DNA of 64,000 bases from Alphaproteobacteria bacterium. Its GTDB lineage: Bacteria > Pseudomonadota > Alphaproteobacteria > Rhodobacterales > Rhodobacteraceae. Below are positions 5,347 to 32,689 of this stretch, piece by piece. The notes under the pieces are model-generated. The model was not told the origin of the DNA. It saw only the letters and a program-made list of their open reading frames with translations, and ran no database searches. The stretch lies in the NCBI GenBank assembly GCA_024280735.1, contig JAJRPO010000014.1:1-64000 (forward strand), in the 5' to 3' direction. Every line of letters starts with the position of its first letter. Position 1 is the stretch's first letter. A program made the translations under genes and the position numbers.

Positions 5347-7197
5347 GTGCGGTCAGTTCGCCCCGTTCCTGACCAAAGTAAAGCCAAAATCGTGAAACAA
5401 GCCCTCGCAGACGCGCTGAAAAACCGTGGATATGACAAACTAACCCCCGTGCAGGAGGCCGTGACCGAGGCTGAACTTGGTGGCGCTGACCTGTTGGTGT
5501 CTGCTCAAACAGGCTCCGGTAAAACTGTCGGCTTTGGTTTGGCCATCGCGCCGACCCTGCTGGGCGAGGCCGAAAAATTCGACCGCGCAAGCGCGCCGCT
5601 GGCATTGGTCATCGCGCCAACCCGCGAGTTGGCCTTGCAAGTGAAACGTGAATTGGCGTGGCTCTATGCAAATACCGGTGCCGAAGTGGCGTCATGCGTT
5701 GGCGGCATGGACATGCGCGATGAACGTCGCGCCCTAACGCGTGGGGCGCATATTGTCGTTGCCACACCGGGCCGTTTGCGTGACCATATCATGCGCCGCT
5801 CCATCGATATGAGCGCGCTGCGCGCCGTTGTTCTGGATGAGGCCGACGAGATGCTCGACCTTGGTTTTCGCGAAGATTTGGAATTTATTCTTGGCGAAGC
5901 ACCGAAATCCCGCCGTACCCTAATGTTCTCCGCCACCGTACCCCGCTCGATTGCGAACCTGGCAAAAAGCTATCAAAACAATGCAGTACGGGTTTCGACG
6001 GTCGCCGAAAAATCACAACACACTGACATTAGCTATCGCGGCATGAATGTTTCAAACCGCGACGCCGAAAACGCGATCATCAACGTGCTGCGATATTACG
6101 AGGCCCCGAATGCGTTGGTTTTCGCCAATACGCGCGTGATGGTGAATAGGTTAACGACACGCCTGTCAAACCGTGGATTTTCCGTTGTGGCCCTGTCAGG
6201 CGAGTTGTCCCAGAATGAACGAACCCACGCTTTGCAAGCCATGCGTGATGGGCGTGCGCGGATTTGTGTGGCCACAGATGTGGCGGCGCGCGGCATCGAT
6301 TTGCCAAACCTCGATCTGGTGATTCACGCGGAATTACCAACAGGTCATGAGACCCTGCTGCACCGATCTGGGCGTACGGGCCGTGCAGGGCGCAAGGGCG
6401 TCAGCGTTCTGATTGTGCCACCAAAATCGCGGCGCAAGGCAGAACGCATTCTGAATTCTGCCAAAGTCACCGCCGAGTGGAGCGATGCGCCTTCTGCCGA
6501 CGACGTGCGCAGCCGCGACCAAGAACGCCTGATGGAAGATGCCACTTGGCAGCAAGAAATCGCCAAAAACGAATCTGCCGCCGTCGAAAAATTGACCGCT
6601 GCCTTCACGCCGGAACAACTCGCCGCCGCCTATTTGCGCCTTTACAACACCAATCACACCGCCCCCGAGGAACTCTCGGCCTCAAATGCAGATGGTCCAC
6701 CGAAGCCCCGTTCTGCCTTTGGCAAGAGCGTTTGGTTTTCCATATCCGGCGGCCGCAAAAACAAGGCCGAACCGCGCCGTTTGCTGCCGATGTTGTGTAA
6801 GGCAGGGGGCTTGGACAAAGAGGACATTGGCGCAATTCGTGTGCAAGACACTGAATCCTTTGTGGAAATTCGCCAAGCCAGCGTGAAAACTTTCCTGTCG
6901 TCTCTGGGTAAGAAATTGCGCCTAGAGGGCGGCATTGTTACCCAACTTGACAGCCCGCCGTCCATCGCGAACTCTCCGCGCCCCAAATTTGAGCCGCGCC
7001 AGAAAGATCGTAAGCCGTACAAGTCCAAGAACAAAGATACGGCCCCGATCCAATGGAACGACGATCCCAAGCCGCGCAAGAAAAAACCGAAGAAACCTGG
7101 CACACCGGCACCGACTCCTGTTGGTAAGGCAAATAGCAAAAAGAACAAGGCGCGTCGGGCCAAGGAAGCAGCGGCGGGCAAACCTGCCAAGAAATAG
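5347..7197 (+). CDS. DEAD-box RNA helicase with DbpA-like RNA-binding domain
   Basis: This is a 616-residue ATP-dependent RNA helicase. The RecA-like core has motif I AQTGSGKT (about 53-60), Ia PTRELA, Ib TPGR, II DEAD (about 165), III SAT, and VI HRSGRTGRAGRKG (about 339-351). After the core, residues about 460-530 resemble the DbpA RNA-binding domain (SISGGRKNKAEPRRLLPML, then IGAIRVQDTESFVEI), and a Lys/Arg/Pro-rich basic tail of about 65 residues follows. In DbpA this domain recognises 23S rRNA hairpin 92, so a role in 50S assembly is plausible. Start choice is weak: GTG at 5347 or GTG at 5392, neither with a clear Shine-Dalgarno. Confidence 0.9.
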   Translation: MRSVRPVPDQSKAKIVKQALADALKNRGYDKLTPVQEAVTEAELGGADLLVSAQTGSGKTVGFGLAIAPTLLGEAEKFDRASAPLALVIAPTRELALQVKRELAWLYANTGAEVASCVGGMDMRDERRALTRGAHIVVATPGRLRDHIMRRSIDMSALRAVVLDEADEMLDLGFREDLEFILGEAPKSRRTLMFSATVPRSIANLAKSYQNNAVRVSTVAEKSQHTDISYRGMNVSNRDAENAIINVLRYYEAPNALVFANTRVMVNRLTTRLSNRGFSVVALSGELSQNERTHALQAMRDGRARICVATDVAARGIDLPNLDLVIHAELPTGHETLLHRSGRTGRAGRKGVSVLIVPPKSRRKAERILNSAKVTAEWSDAPSADDVRSRDQERLMEDATWQQEIAKNESAAVEKLTAAFTPEQLAAAYLRLYNTNHTAPEELSASNADGPPKPRSAFGKSVWFSISGGRKNKAEPRRLLPMLCKAGGLDKEDIGAIRVQDTESFVEIRQASVKTFLSSLGKKLRLEGGIVTQLDSPPSIANSPRPKFEPRQKDRKPYKSKNKDTAPIQWNDDPKPRKKKPKKPGTPAPTPVGKANSKKNKARRAKEAAAGKPAKK

Positions 7198-25187: not shown

Positions 25188-26372
25188 TTAGCGGCCCAAT
25201 TCTTTCATTGCGGCCTCGATGCCTTTGAGGGTCATCGGGTACATTTTATCGCTGAAAATCTCGCGGATCATTTCGATGCTTTGGGTGTATTGCCAGTATT
25301 GTTCTTTCACTGGATTGATCCAGACCGAGCCGGGCCATTGTTCTTGTGCGCGCAGCAGCCATGTCTGGCCGGTTTCCTCGTTCCAATGCTCATTTGCGCC
25401 GCCGCGATAGGCGACCTCGTAGGGGGACATGCTGGCGTCACCGACAAAAATACATTTGTAATCAGAGGCGTAGGTGCGCAGCACCTCCCATGTGGGTTGC
25501 TGTTCCTGCCAACGCCGCCCGTTGTCTTTCCACACGCCTTCATACAGGCAATTGTGGAAATAAAAGTATTCCATGTGCTTGAATTCGGTCCTCGCGGCGG
25601 AAAATAATTCCTCCACCAGCTTGATATAGGGGTCCATTGAGCCACCCACATCCAGAAACAGCAGAACTTTAATGGCGTTGCGTTTTTCCGGCCGTGTCAC
25701 CACATCAAGATAGCCGTGTTCCGCCGTGGCCTGAATGGTGCTTTCCAGATCCAGCTCGTCATCCGCGCCGGAGCGCGCCCATTTGCGCAGTCGTTTCAGG
25801 GCGACTTTGATGTTGCGGGTGCCCAGCTCAACGCTGTCATCCAGATTCTTGAACTCGCGCTTGTCCCAGACCTTGACCGCCCTTTGATGCCGGCTCTCGT
25901 TCTGGCCAATGCGCACGCCTTCGGGATTATAGCCATAGGCGCCAAACGGCGAGGTGCCCGCCGTGCCGATCCATTTATTGCCGCCTTGATGGCGTTCTTC
26001 CTGTTCTTTTAGCCGTTCTTTGAGGGTTTTCATCAGTTCGTCAAAGCCGCCCAGCGACTTGATTTCAGCCATTTCTTCGGGGCTTAGATGTTTTTCCGCC
26101 AGTTTGGTCAGCCAATCATCGGGCACATCAACGGCATTCAGGATGTCGTCAACCGTCAGCCCCTCCATGCCTTTGAAACACTCGGAGAATACGCGGTCGA
26201 ATTTATCCAGATTGCGTTCGTCTTTGACCATGGTGATGCGGGCGAGGTAATAAAACCCCTCCACGTCATAGATCACCAACCCGGTTTTCAGGGCTTCCAG
26301 AAAGGCCAGATATTCGCGCAGGGAAACCGGAATTCCGACCGAGCGCAGCATTTCAAAGAATCGTATAAACAT
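25188..26372 (-). CDS. VWA-domain protein, CoxE-like
   Basis: A 394-residue protein with MFIRFFEMLRSVGIPVSLREYLAFLEAL at the N-terminus, the usual start of CoxE-like VWA proteins. The von Willebrand A domain (about 210-394) has the metal-ion-dependent adhesion motif LFLDVGGSMDPYIK (D-x-G-x-S). These proteins work with MoxR AAA+ ATPases as metal-insertion or complex-assembly chaperones, and a moxR gene heads this minus-strand operon. Cytoplasmic. The client protein is not known. Confidence 0.9.
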   Translation of the reverse strand: MFIRFFEMLRSVGIPVSLREYLAFLEALKTGLVIYDVEGFYYLARITMVKDERNLDKFDRVFSECFKGMEGLTVDDILNAVDVPDDWLTKLAEKHLSPEEMAEIKSLGGFDELMKTLKERLKEQEERHQGGNKWIGTAGTSPFGAYGYNPEGVRIGQNESRHQRAVKVWDKREFKNLDDSVELGTRNIKVALKRLRKWARSGADDELDLESTIQATAEHGYLDVVTRPEKRNAIKVLLFLDVGGSMDPYIKLVEELFSAARTEFKHMEYFYFHNCLYEGVWKDNGRRWQEQQPTWEVLRTYASDYKCIFVGDASMSPYEVAYRGGANEHWNEETGQTWLLRAQEQWPGSVWINPVKEQYWQYTQSIEMIREIFSDKMYPMTLKGIEAAMKELGR

Positions 26373-27938: not shown

Positions 27939-28306
27939 ACCTGATACTTTACAAAGGGGGTCAGGGTTGCGACATAATCATACAAGCGTCGCGCCTTTAC
28001 GTTACCATTATTTGTTAACCAATATACTGCGGCGGAATTGCGGCCCTTTGCGTGCGAAACTACGGCCTCGATCAATTTGGCCCCGCCGCCTGTGCCCCGA
28101 TTTTCCGATAACGCACCGATATCATTGAGATAACAGCGGTTTTCAATATCCCAAAAAGAGTGGCGACATAAATAACTATCCAAGCCGATTACCCTCCCTT
28201 TGTACGCGGAAATACTTGAAAGCATCGCCTTGAACGGGACCCCCATGCGCGCCCAAGCTGCCGCATAAACATCCGCGGCTGTTACTGGGCGCACTGTTGC
28301 TGTCAT
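27935..28306 (-). CDS. GNAT-family acetyltransferase, internally shortened
   Basis: 123 residues. The N-terminus MTATVRPVTAAD and the C-terminus (GGGAKLIEAVVSHAKG, VYWLTNNGN, ARRLYDYVA) match a common GNAT family, including the acetyl-CoA pyrophosphate loop ENRGTGGGAKL in place of the usual Q/R-x-x-G-x-G/A. Compared with family members of about 145-150 residues from memory, roughly 25 residues after position 12 appear missing (the first helices), and the core differs. ATGA overlaps at both ends keep the frame in the operon. It may be inactive or modified. Confidence 0.7.
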   Translation of the reverse strand: MTATVRPVTAADVYAAAWARMGVPFKAMLSSISAYKGRVIGLDSYLCRHSFWDIENRCYLNDIGALSENRGTGGGAKLIEAVVSHAKGRNSAAVYWLTNNGNVKARRLYDYVATLTPFVKYQV

Positions 28307-29142
28307 CTGTTTCCCCGCGCCATAAAGGCCAATCGCTCAAACAAATGTACATCCTGTTCGTTTTTCAACAATGCACCGTGCAACTTGGGCAGGGAGTTTT
28401 TCCCATCTCGCCGCATATCTGCCGCATCCAGATCCTCTACCAGCAGCAGTTTTAGCCAATCCAGAACCTCGGATGTAGACGGCTTTTTCTTCAATCCCGG
28501 TGTTTCGCGAATCTCGTAAAACTGGCTCAACGCCTCGCTGATTAACGAAGATTTGATGTCTGGAAAATGCACGTTGATGATCTGTTTCATCGTTTCAGCA
28601 TCAGGAAAGCGGATGTAATGAAAGAAACAGCGGCGCAGGAAGGCGTCGGGCAGTTCCTTTTCATTGTTCGAGGTAATAATCACAATCGGGCGCAGTTTGG
28701 CCTTTACGGTTTCGCCTGTCTCGTAGACGTGGAATTCCATCTTATCCAGTTCTTGCAACAGATCATTCGGGAACTCGATGTCTGCCTTATCGATTTCGTC
28801 GATCAGCAGAACCAGACGCTCGTCCGCTGTAAAGGCCTGCCAGAGTTTACCCTTTTTGATGTAGTTGCGCACATCGTTCACACGTTCGTCACCTAATTGG
28901 CTGTCGCGCAGGCGCGAAACCGCGTCATATTCATACAGGCCTTGCTGCGCCTTGGTGGTGGATTTGATGTTCCATTCCAATATCGGCAGGTTCAGCGCCG
29001 CCGCCACTTGCAGGGCCAACTCGGTTTTGCCGGTTCCCGGCTCGCCTTTGATCAACAACGGGCGTTCCAACGCAATTGCCGCGTTTACGGCCACTGTCAG
29101 ATCGTCTGTCGAGATATAGTCCTTGGTGCCTTCGAATTTCAT
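28303..29142 (-). CDS. MoxR-family AAA+ ATPase
   Basis: A 279-residue AAA+ ATPase. Walker A is GEPGTGKTE (about 37-45), Walker B is LLIDEIDKAD (about 112), sensor 1 lies in IVIITSNNEKELPDAFLRR, which includes the arginine finger, and sensor 2 follows in the lid. MoxR proteins act as chaperones with VWA partners; the VWA protein of this operon (25188-26372) is the likely partner. It diverges from dksA. Confidence 0.92.
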   Translation of the reverse strand: MKFEGTKDYISTDDLTVAVNAAIALERPLLIKGEPGTGKTELALQVAAALNLPILEWNIKSTTKAQQGLYEYDAVSRLRDSQLGDERVNDVRNYIKKGKLWQAFTADERLVLLIDEIDKADIEFPNDLLQELDKMEFHVYETGETVKAKLRPIVIITSNNEKELPDAFLRRCFFHYIRFPDAETMKQIINVHFPDIKSSLISEALSQFYEIRETPGLKKKPSTSEVLDWLKLLLVEDLDAADMRRDGKNSLPKLHGALLKNEQDVHLFERLAFMARGNR

Positions 29143-29291: not shown

Positions 29292-29711
29292 ATGAAAGCG
29301 GAGGTCATTCTGGAAGCCGAATATCGGCCCGCTGACGATGAACCGTTCATGAACGATCGTCAGTAAGAGTATTTTCGGAGCAAACTGATCGAGTGGAAAG
29401 AATCGCTGATGGCGGACACTCGTGATACCATCGAAGTGATGCAAGAAGGTACGCGCAACATCCCCGATGTGGCGGATCGCGCATCAGAGGAAACCGACCG
29501 TGCGCTGGAATTGCGCACACGGGATCGTCAGCGCAAACTGGTGTCAAAAATCGACCAGGCTTTGCGTCGCATCGAAGAAGGGTCTTACGGCTATTGCGAA
29601 TCTACGGGGGAGCCGATTTCGCTCAAACGTCTTGATGCACGGCCGATTGCGACCCTCTCTTTAGAAGCCCAAGAGAGCCATGAGCGTAAAGAAAAAGTGC
29701 ACCGCGATTAA
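29292..29711 (+). pseudogene. dksA: dksA with an in-frame TAA at codon 25 (RNA polymerase-binding DksA)
   Basis: The full reading frame is 140 codons, matching DksA length. Codons 1-24 read MKAEVILEAEYR, PADDEPFMNDRQ; codon 25 is TAA (29364-29366); codons 26 onward read EYFRSKLIEWKESL and continue to the normal end. Relatives have Leu at this place (QLEYF), so one base change TTA or TTG to TAA explains it. The rest is intact: coiled-coil tip PDVADRASEETD with both Asp, and the single-Cys YGYCESTGEPI site of alphaproteobacterial DksA. Restart at ATG 29409, with GGAAAG upstream, would give a 100-residue protein lacking the first ~39 residues. A sequencing error is possible. Confidence 0.85.
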
Positions 29712-31898: not shown

Positions 31899-32689
31899 AA
31901 TTTCGCCCGCATTTGGAGCGGCGCAAAGGTTTCCTGCTGGCGGATTTCCAATTTACCTGCCTTCACCAACTCCAGTGCGGCGGCGAAAGTCGAGGCCGTG
32001 GCAGAGCGGCGCTGTTTTGGGTCATCTGACCACCCGTCAGGCAAAAACTGGCTGAGGTCGGACCATTCAATCGCGTGGCCAATCAGGCCTTTCATCCGGT
32101 CCAGCGCCTGTTCCATGGTGAAAATATTTTCGCGCTGCTGCATGTGCAGCGGTTCAAAATTATCCTTGGTCCGCAGGCGCGCGTAGGCCTGCATCAGGTC
32201 CAGAACCGTGGCTTTGTAATGGATCGTCTTTTTGATCGAGGTGTCCTCGGGGATGCCACGGGCAAAGAAATCACGCCCCAACTGGTCGCGCGCCATCAGT
32301 TTGGCGGCGACGCGGCGCATGCCTTCCAGCCGTTCCAACTGAAACGCCAGATGGGCAGCGAGTTCAGCACCCGACGGTCCTTCCTCATTTGGGTCAGGGG
32401 GCAGTAACAGGCGGGATTTCAAAAATGCCAGCCAGGCCGCCATCACCAGATAATCCGCCGCCAGCTCAATGCGCAGCTGCTTGGCTTCCTCGACAAATTT
32501 CAGGTATTGCACCGCGAGGGCCAGCACGGAAATCTTGCGCAGGTCAACCTTTTGGGTGCGCGCAAGGGTCAGCAGCAAATCGAGCGGCCCTTCATAACCA
32601 TCCACATCGATGACCAAAGCCTCTGCCTTGATCCGCTCGGCAGTGGATTGAAAGCCGCTCGCGTCTTCAGTGAAGGTATCTTCAGGCAT
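31895..32689 (-). CDS. scpA: Segregation and condensation protein A
   Basis: A 264-residue kleisin subunit that bridges the SMC heads. The N-terminal signature YEGPLDLLLTLARTQKVDL begins at residue 32, and the SMC-binding C-terminal winged helix includes RRSATASTFAAALELVKAGK. It overlaps the nagZ end by eight bases and scpB by four, forming a run nagZ-scpA-scpB. Confidence 0.93.
   Translation of the reverse strand: MPEDTFTEDASGFQSTAERIKAEALVIDVDGYEGPLDLLLTLARTQKVDLRKISVLALAVQYLKFVEEAKQLRIELAADYLVMAAWLAFLKSRLLLPPDPNEEGPSGAELAAHLAFQLERLEGMRRVAAKLMARDQLGRDFFARGIPEDTSIKKTIHYKATVLDLMQAYARLRTKDNFEPLHMQQRENIFTMEQALDRMKGLIGHAIEWSDLSQFLPDGWSDDPKQRRSATASTFAAALELVKAGKLEIRQQETFAPLQMRAKL

Follow-up and report, generated by a model that had tools for sequence, protein, structure and literature searches.

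DksA binds RNA polymerase and acts together with ppGpp. In the sections of PMC9239242 that deal with this protein family, DxxDxA is given as the motif of the DksA coiled-coil tip, and non-C4 DksA proteins, with RSP2654 of R. sphaeroides named in this class, are described as working like DksA. TraR is presented there as a 73-residue protein that has an N-terminal DxxDxA and inhibits transcription as DksA does, and we infer that it lacks the first helix of DksA. Short DksA/TraR-like proteins of the kind of RSP0166 and SMc00049 are said in the same sections not to work like DksA.

We analyzed a dksA locus in a 64 kb stretch of DNA (the window, to which all positions refer) from a Rhodobacteraceae-type bacterium, whose draft genome comprises 2.63 Mb in 88 contigs with a completeness of 70.93%. 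An initial annotation had described a dksA frame opening at ATG 29292 and interrupted by TAA at 29364–29366 as codon 25, and both are borne out by the sequence. The frame is otherwise intact, as claimed, since it stays open past codon 25 up to TAA 29709–29711 and comprises 139 codons including the in-frame stop, plus the terminator; with TAA at codon 25, however, it is not a full-length uninterrupted dksA. Its identity as DksA is also confirmed, as the translation read across the stop scores 146.2 bits against the TIGR02420 dksA profile (cut-off 115.5), and therefore the continuity of the frame is not due to chance. The features of the locus are:

29292..29711, plus strand: dksA reading frame, interrupted at codon 25 (translation, TIGR02420 profile)
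29364..29366, plus strand: in-frame TAA, codon 25 (sequence, comparison with relatives)
29292..29363, plus strand: dksA codons 1–24, recognisable in relatives
29409..29711, plus strand: hypothetical restart product of 100 residues from ATG 29409 (ORF, profile match)
29395..29400, plus strand: GGAAAG, a weak Shine-Dalgarno-like string over conserved Trp-Lys codons (sequence)
29466..29483, plus strand: intact DxxDxA coiled-coil tip motif, DVADRA (translation; motif as named in the sections of PMC9239242 on this family)

DVADRA corresponds to residues 59–64 of the frame, and all 22 relatives in the alignment share its three motif residues. The frame holds a single Cys in place of a C4 finger. Genes for a VWA/CoxE-type protein and an AAA-type ATPase lie near dksA (25188–26372 and 28303–29142, minus strand), both with open frames.

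For comparison we tried 113 loci, 110 of which gave the frame by the motif used; the three missed by it (L059, L127 and L145) are open by another motif and were left out of the counts. Once the window and L036, where dksA is broken, had been set aside, the other 108 gave 103 distinct sequences. The initial annotation had expected Leu at codon 25, and Leu is indeed the commonest residue there, but the three nearest relatives carry Thr (G015 and G029) and Val (G010). The full distribution is L 40, V 26, T 24, Q 6, I 2, M 2, S 1, R 1 and A 1, so that the position is poorly conserved with a majority of 0.39, compared to mean majorities of 0.81 for codons 1–24, 0.77 for codons 26–39 and 0.92 for codons 40–139. 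As judged from these sequences, the ancestral codon 25 cannot be inferred from the relatives. At the DNA level the dksA region is matched in 30 of the 33 genomes of the genus, the window's own genome counted, the three others being 65–83% complete; the nearest relative is 82% identical over the region. No sister strain with a near-identical assembly was found among the 32 other genomes of the genus, and viral contigs gave no exact match.

To see the stop in the context of its assembly, the window was compared by tblastn with the ORFs of three congeners, which aligned 52.8 of the 64 kb in 59 segments, a few of them weak or antisense matches. Stops occur in five of the segments, but in four of these they precede the start codon of the window gene, leaving dksA as the only segment with an interior stop and the rest of the compared 52.8 kb clean. 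With one interior stop in 59 segments, there is no sign of an error-ridden assembly within the window. A wider survey covered the window and 388.9 kb more, altogether 453 kb of the source genome (G000), with ORFs from three congeners and from the first 1.6 Mb of a complete one (2.75 Mb) as references; its comparable part amounted to 205 segments and 200 kb, including some antisense shadows. Here 11 segments contain stops, namely dksA, three segments of the window whose stop precedes the start codon, and seven others, six of which, on five loci, were checked on six-frame ORFs. L195 holds a real interruption. L179 and L193 were rejected as interrupted genes as their stops precede the start codon, and so were L186 and both L187 segments, which are antisense to long ORFs; in L183 the stop lies three residues short of the alignment end. 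Lone interior stops are thus found in two of the 205 segments, and no frameshift was flagged in any of them.

The second lone stop is a TAG at codon 159 (about 34404) of an AraC/GlxA-type regulator with DJ-1/PfpI and HTH_18 domains (L195:13930–14949, corresponding to about 33930–34949 of contig C86 of G000). All eight homologous copies, from seven genomes, are open with a sense codon at this site, although an orthologue is likely only in G024, with 61% identity, compared to 33–40% for the remaining copies. Such a pattern, two lone stops and no frameshift, is compatible with substitution errors as well as with young alleles. dksA is open in 79 of the 80 named loci, and the broken one is L036 from Mangrovicoccus ximenensis T1lg56, where the dksA frame is lost at two undetermined bases (N; positions 5970 and 5982 of the locus); this locus has 13 Ns in 12.3 kb, and its break is most simply an assembly artefact.

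The initial annotation had called the gene a pseudogene, but as a decayed gene it does not hold up: there is no nonsynonymous excess over the whole frame and no further lesion. Three-taxon arithmetic on NG86 counts assigns 6.5 nonsynonymous and 25 synonymous changes over the whole frame to the window branch, 11 and 25.5 to the relative G015, and 12.5 and 34 to the relative G010. By segment the window branch has 2 nonsynonymous and 2.5 synonymous changes in codons 1–24, 1.5 and 0.5 in codons 26–39, and 4 and 22.5 in codons 40–139. The first 39 codons together (3.5 and 3) carry too few changes for testing relaxation, and on these counts a relaxation confined to this 5' part of the gene is conceivable. 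Apart from the stop, residue 30 is the sole residue unseen among the 103 relatives. As there is no decay over the whole frame, the stop is therefore either very young or not real.

The 5' end of dksA also shows a low synonymous divergence among the closest genomes. In codons 1–24 there are 2 synonymous differences in 14.3 sites between G000 and G015, 2 in 14.3 between G000 and G029 and 0 in 14.3 between G015 and G029, and in codons 40–139 about 0.65 per site (0.47 for G015 and G029). Fisher tests of this contrast gave 0.0007 for G000 and G015 and 0.0006 for G015 and G029, uncorrected for the number of genes looked at. The pooled 5' ends of other window genes reach 0.58–0.67 (29 genes chosen by hand, as far as they could be aligned). 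Against G029 none of eight other genes has a 5' end as low as that of dksA, and against G015 the gene at 32682, one of nine others, has 0.19 vs 0.14 for dksA, its 5' end overlapping a neighbour. Against G010 the value is 7 in 14.3 sites, which is not significant (0.24), with 8 of 26 other genes lower. The sequences thus point to a possible constraint at the dksA 5' end among the three closest genomes that is unseen against G010. An RNA structure behind codons 1–24 was rejected, as four stretches fold no better than shuffles (z = −0.34, 1.02, −0.82 and 1.03), and a search for known RNA elements in Rfam gave only two matches far under the gathering scores (E = 0.57 and 0.95).

A second dksA elsewhere in the genome, which had been raised along with the stop, was not found: no true copy turned up in the recovered part of this 71%-complete genome. 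The only other match is a 116-residue DksA/TraR-like protein on contig C86, which with 42 bits lies far under the TIGR02420 cut-off of 115.5 and was therefore rejected as a second dksA. It has a C4 finger, an intermediate length and no visible DxxDxA, and its one TAA looks like its own terminator because the ORF is intact. Within the family, dksA is found above the TIGR02420 cut-off in 378 of 394 genomes, and some dksA match in 341 of the 346 high-quality ones; among the family matches listed, that of the window is the only one with a stop. The five high-quality genomes without any match (G085, G115, G250, G264 and G365) remained without one when searched again with the window fragment, at E values of up to 0.1, and are possible genuine losses, and two others (G075 and G356) have only weak, paralogue-like matches. 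No remnants of dksA were seen in the 18 genomes without a clear copy, as seven have weak matches without interior stops and 11 have none. Because of the five high-quality genomes without a match, a real loss of dksA is believable in this lineage as well, and judging from the gene content such a loss would not be compensated by anything in the recovered genome. The ppGpp synthetase/hydrolase gene of the source genome is intact.

Taking these results together, we regard the TAA at codon 25 as a base-level artefact of the draft assembly with a probability of roughly 0.48; these are about even odds, judged and not computed, and give the artefact a slight lead over a real nonsense allele of recent origin. 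The TAA would have arisen from an error in sequencing or assembly, or from a minor variant that entered the consensus, the dominant population genome would be free of the stop, and the living population would make a normal DksA of 139 residues. We favour this because there is no decay over the whole frame, the draft is incomplete, dksA is near-universal and all named loci except L036 are open. No direct evidence speaks against it; counted against it are the otherwise clean contig, the fact that dksA can be lost, and the first 39 codons with their room for relaxation. A real, very recent nonsense mutation, with translation ending after 24 residues and dksA null or near-null, is a serious possibility that we hold only tentatively, and equally tentative is its consequence, a cell without DksA and hence without much of the ppGpp-dependent promoter control. 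The stop is after all present in the assembled sequence, no compensating dksA accompanies it, the family offers precedents for the absence of the gene, and a second regulator of the same genome also carries a lone stop. On the other hand, the frame as a whole gives no sign of relaxed selection, so that the mutation would have to be very young, the intact ppGpp synthetase/hydrolase gene speaks against it, and a second copy could lie in the roughly 29% of the genome that is missing.

If the stop is real, translation might also restart at ATG 29409 and give a 100-residue protein like a long TraR, which we consider improbable, as we do that such a product keeps the DxxDxA tip together with the second coiled-coil helix and the C-terminal domain. 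The GGAAAG proposed as a ribosome binding site is present at 29395–29400, 8 nt upstream of this ATG, and spells conserved Trp-Lys codons, of which Trp is invariant and Lys nearly so. With what we take to be the anti-Shine-Dalgarno sequence, its energy of −3.3 kcal/mol falls in the range of real starts, with 7 of 28 gene starts weaker, but of 237 internal ATGs 45% have an energy at least as favourable and the dksA start itself reaches −6.4, so that the value is an ordinary one. Met-40 is found in just 15 of the 103 relatives. The predicted product would keep the coiled-coil tip, as had been claimed, with DxxDxA at its residues 20–25, and this part alone scores 122 bits against TIGR02420, above the cut-off. 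A short TraR with an N-terminal DxxDxA, inhibiting transcription as DksA does according to the same sections of PMC9239242, offers an analogy, and codons 40–139 are the better conserved part on the window branch, though likewise in relatives. However, the fragment does not contain the complete DksA_N coiled-coil domain in a single product, as it covers positions 18–71 of 71 in this Pfam model whereas the full-length relative G015 covers 1–71. Its residue 5 aligns to residue 56 of E. coli DksA in the profile alignment, and the first long helix spans residues 22–56 in the model of the full-length relative, therefore a start at residue 40 would remove about half of it. The AF2 model of the fragment (24-row alignment; pLDDT 65.8, pTM 0.31) found no PDB structure at E ≤ 0.001, whereas that of the full-length relative (22 rows; pLDDT 67.2, pTM 0.54) matches DksA (5vsw and 1tjl, TM about 0.7); this contrast between predicted models is weak evidence because both have a pLDDT below 70. 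Against the TraR profile TIGR02419 the fragment reaches 25 bits (cut-off 59.7), and with its single Cys it is not a TraR. It is very improbable that the stop has left dksA as a leader of 24 codons followed by a restarted, TraR-like chromosomal DksA of 100 residues born by nonsense mutation; the first coiled-coil helix of such a protein would be missing its lower half, and the protein might, speculatively, be freed from some ppGpp-dependent control. Finally, decoding of TAA by a suppressor tRNA or a changed code, with a full-length protein being made, would suit a frame that is intact on both sides of the stop but is scarcely credible. The reassignment considered initially is disfavoured by the 27 tRNA genes found in this 71%-complete genome, none of which has a stop-reading anticodon, and by TAA being the terminator of 12 of the 29 window genes tallied, dksA included (three of the 29 have inexact end coordinates with no stop seen).

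The interruption of dksA by one stop codon, in a draft genome where the gene is otherwise sound, is a real observation with an ordinary explanation, either an artefact or a very young allele. If the stop is an artefact, it shows that in draft genomes an isolated stop within a conserved gene does not by itself justify a pseudogene call, a caution also illustrated by L036 with the same gene broken at undetermined bases in another genome of the family. If it is real, it would be a fresh loss of a near-universal regulator of the stringent response and a natural test of DksA loss in this lineage.

In comparison with the known systems, the window frame resembles DksA (TIGR02420; E. coli 1tjl/5vsw) in its profile score when read through the stop and in keeping DxxDxA, but differs in the in-frame TAA at codon 25. 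Its single Cys in place of a C4 finger is as in the non-C4 DksA proteins, the class of RSP2654 of R. sphaeroides, which is probably its orthologue. The 116-residue paralogue on C86 is similar to the short DksA/TraR-like proteins without DxxDxA, RSP0166 and SMc00049, a resemblance seen in its sequence by inspection and not by a tree, and is a gene separate from the window dksA. Like TraR (73 residues; F plasmid and phage homologues), the putative restart product would be without most of the first coiled-coil helix and would keep DxxDxA, but it would differ from TraR in its 100 residues, in having no C4 finger and in its origin from a chromosomal dksA locus.
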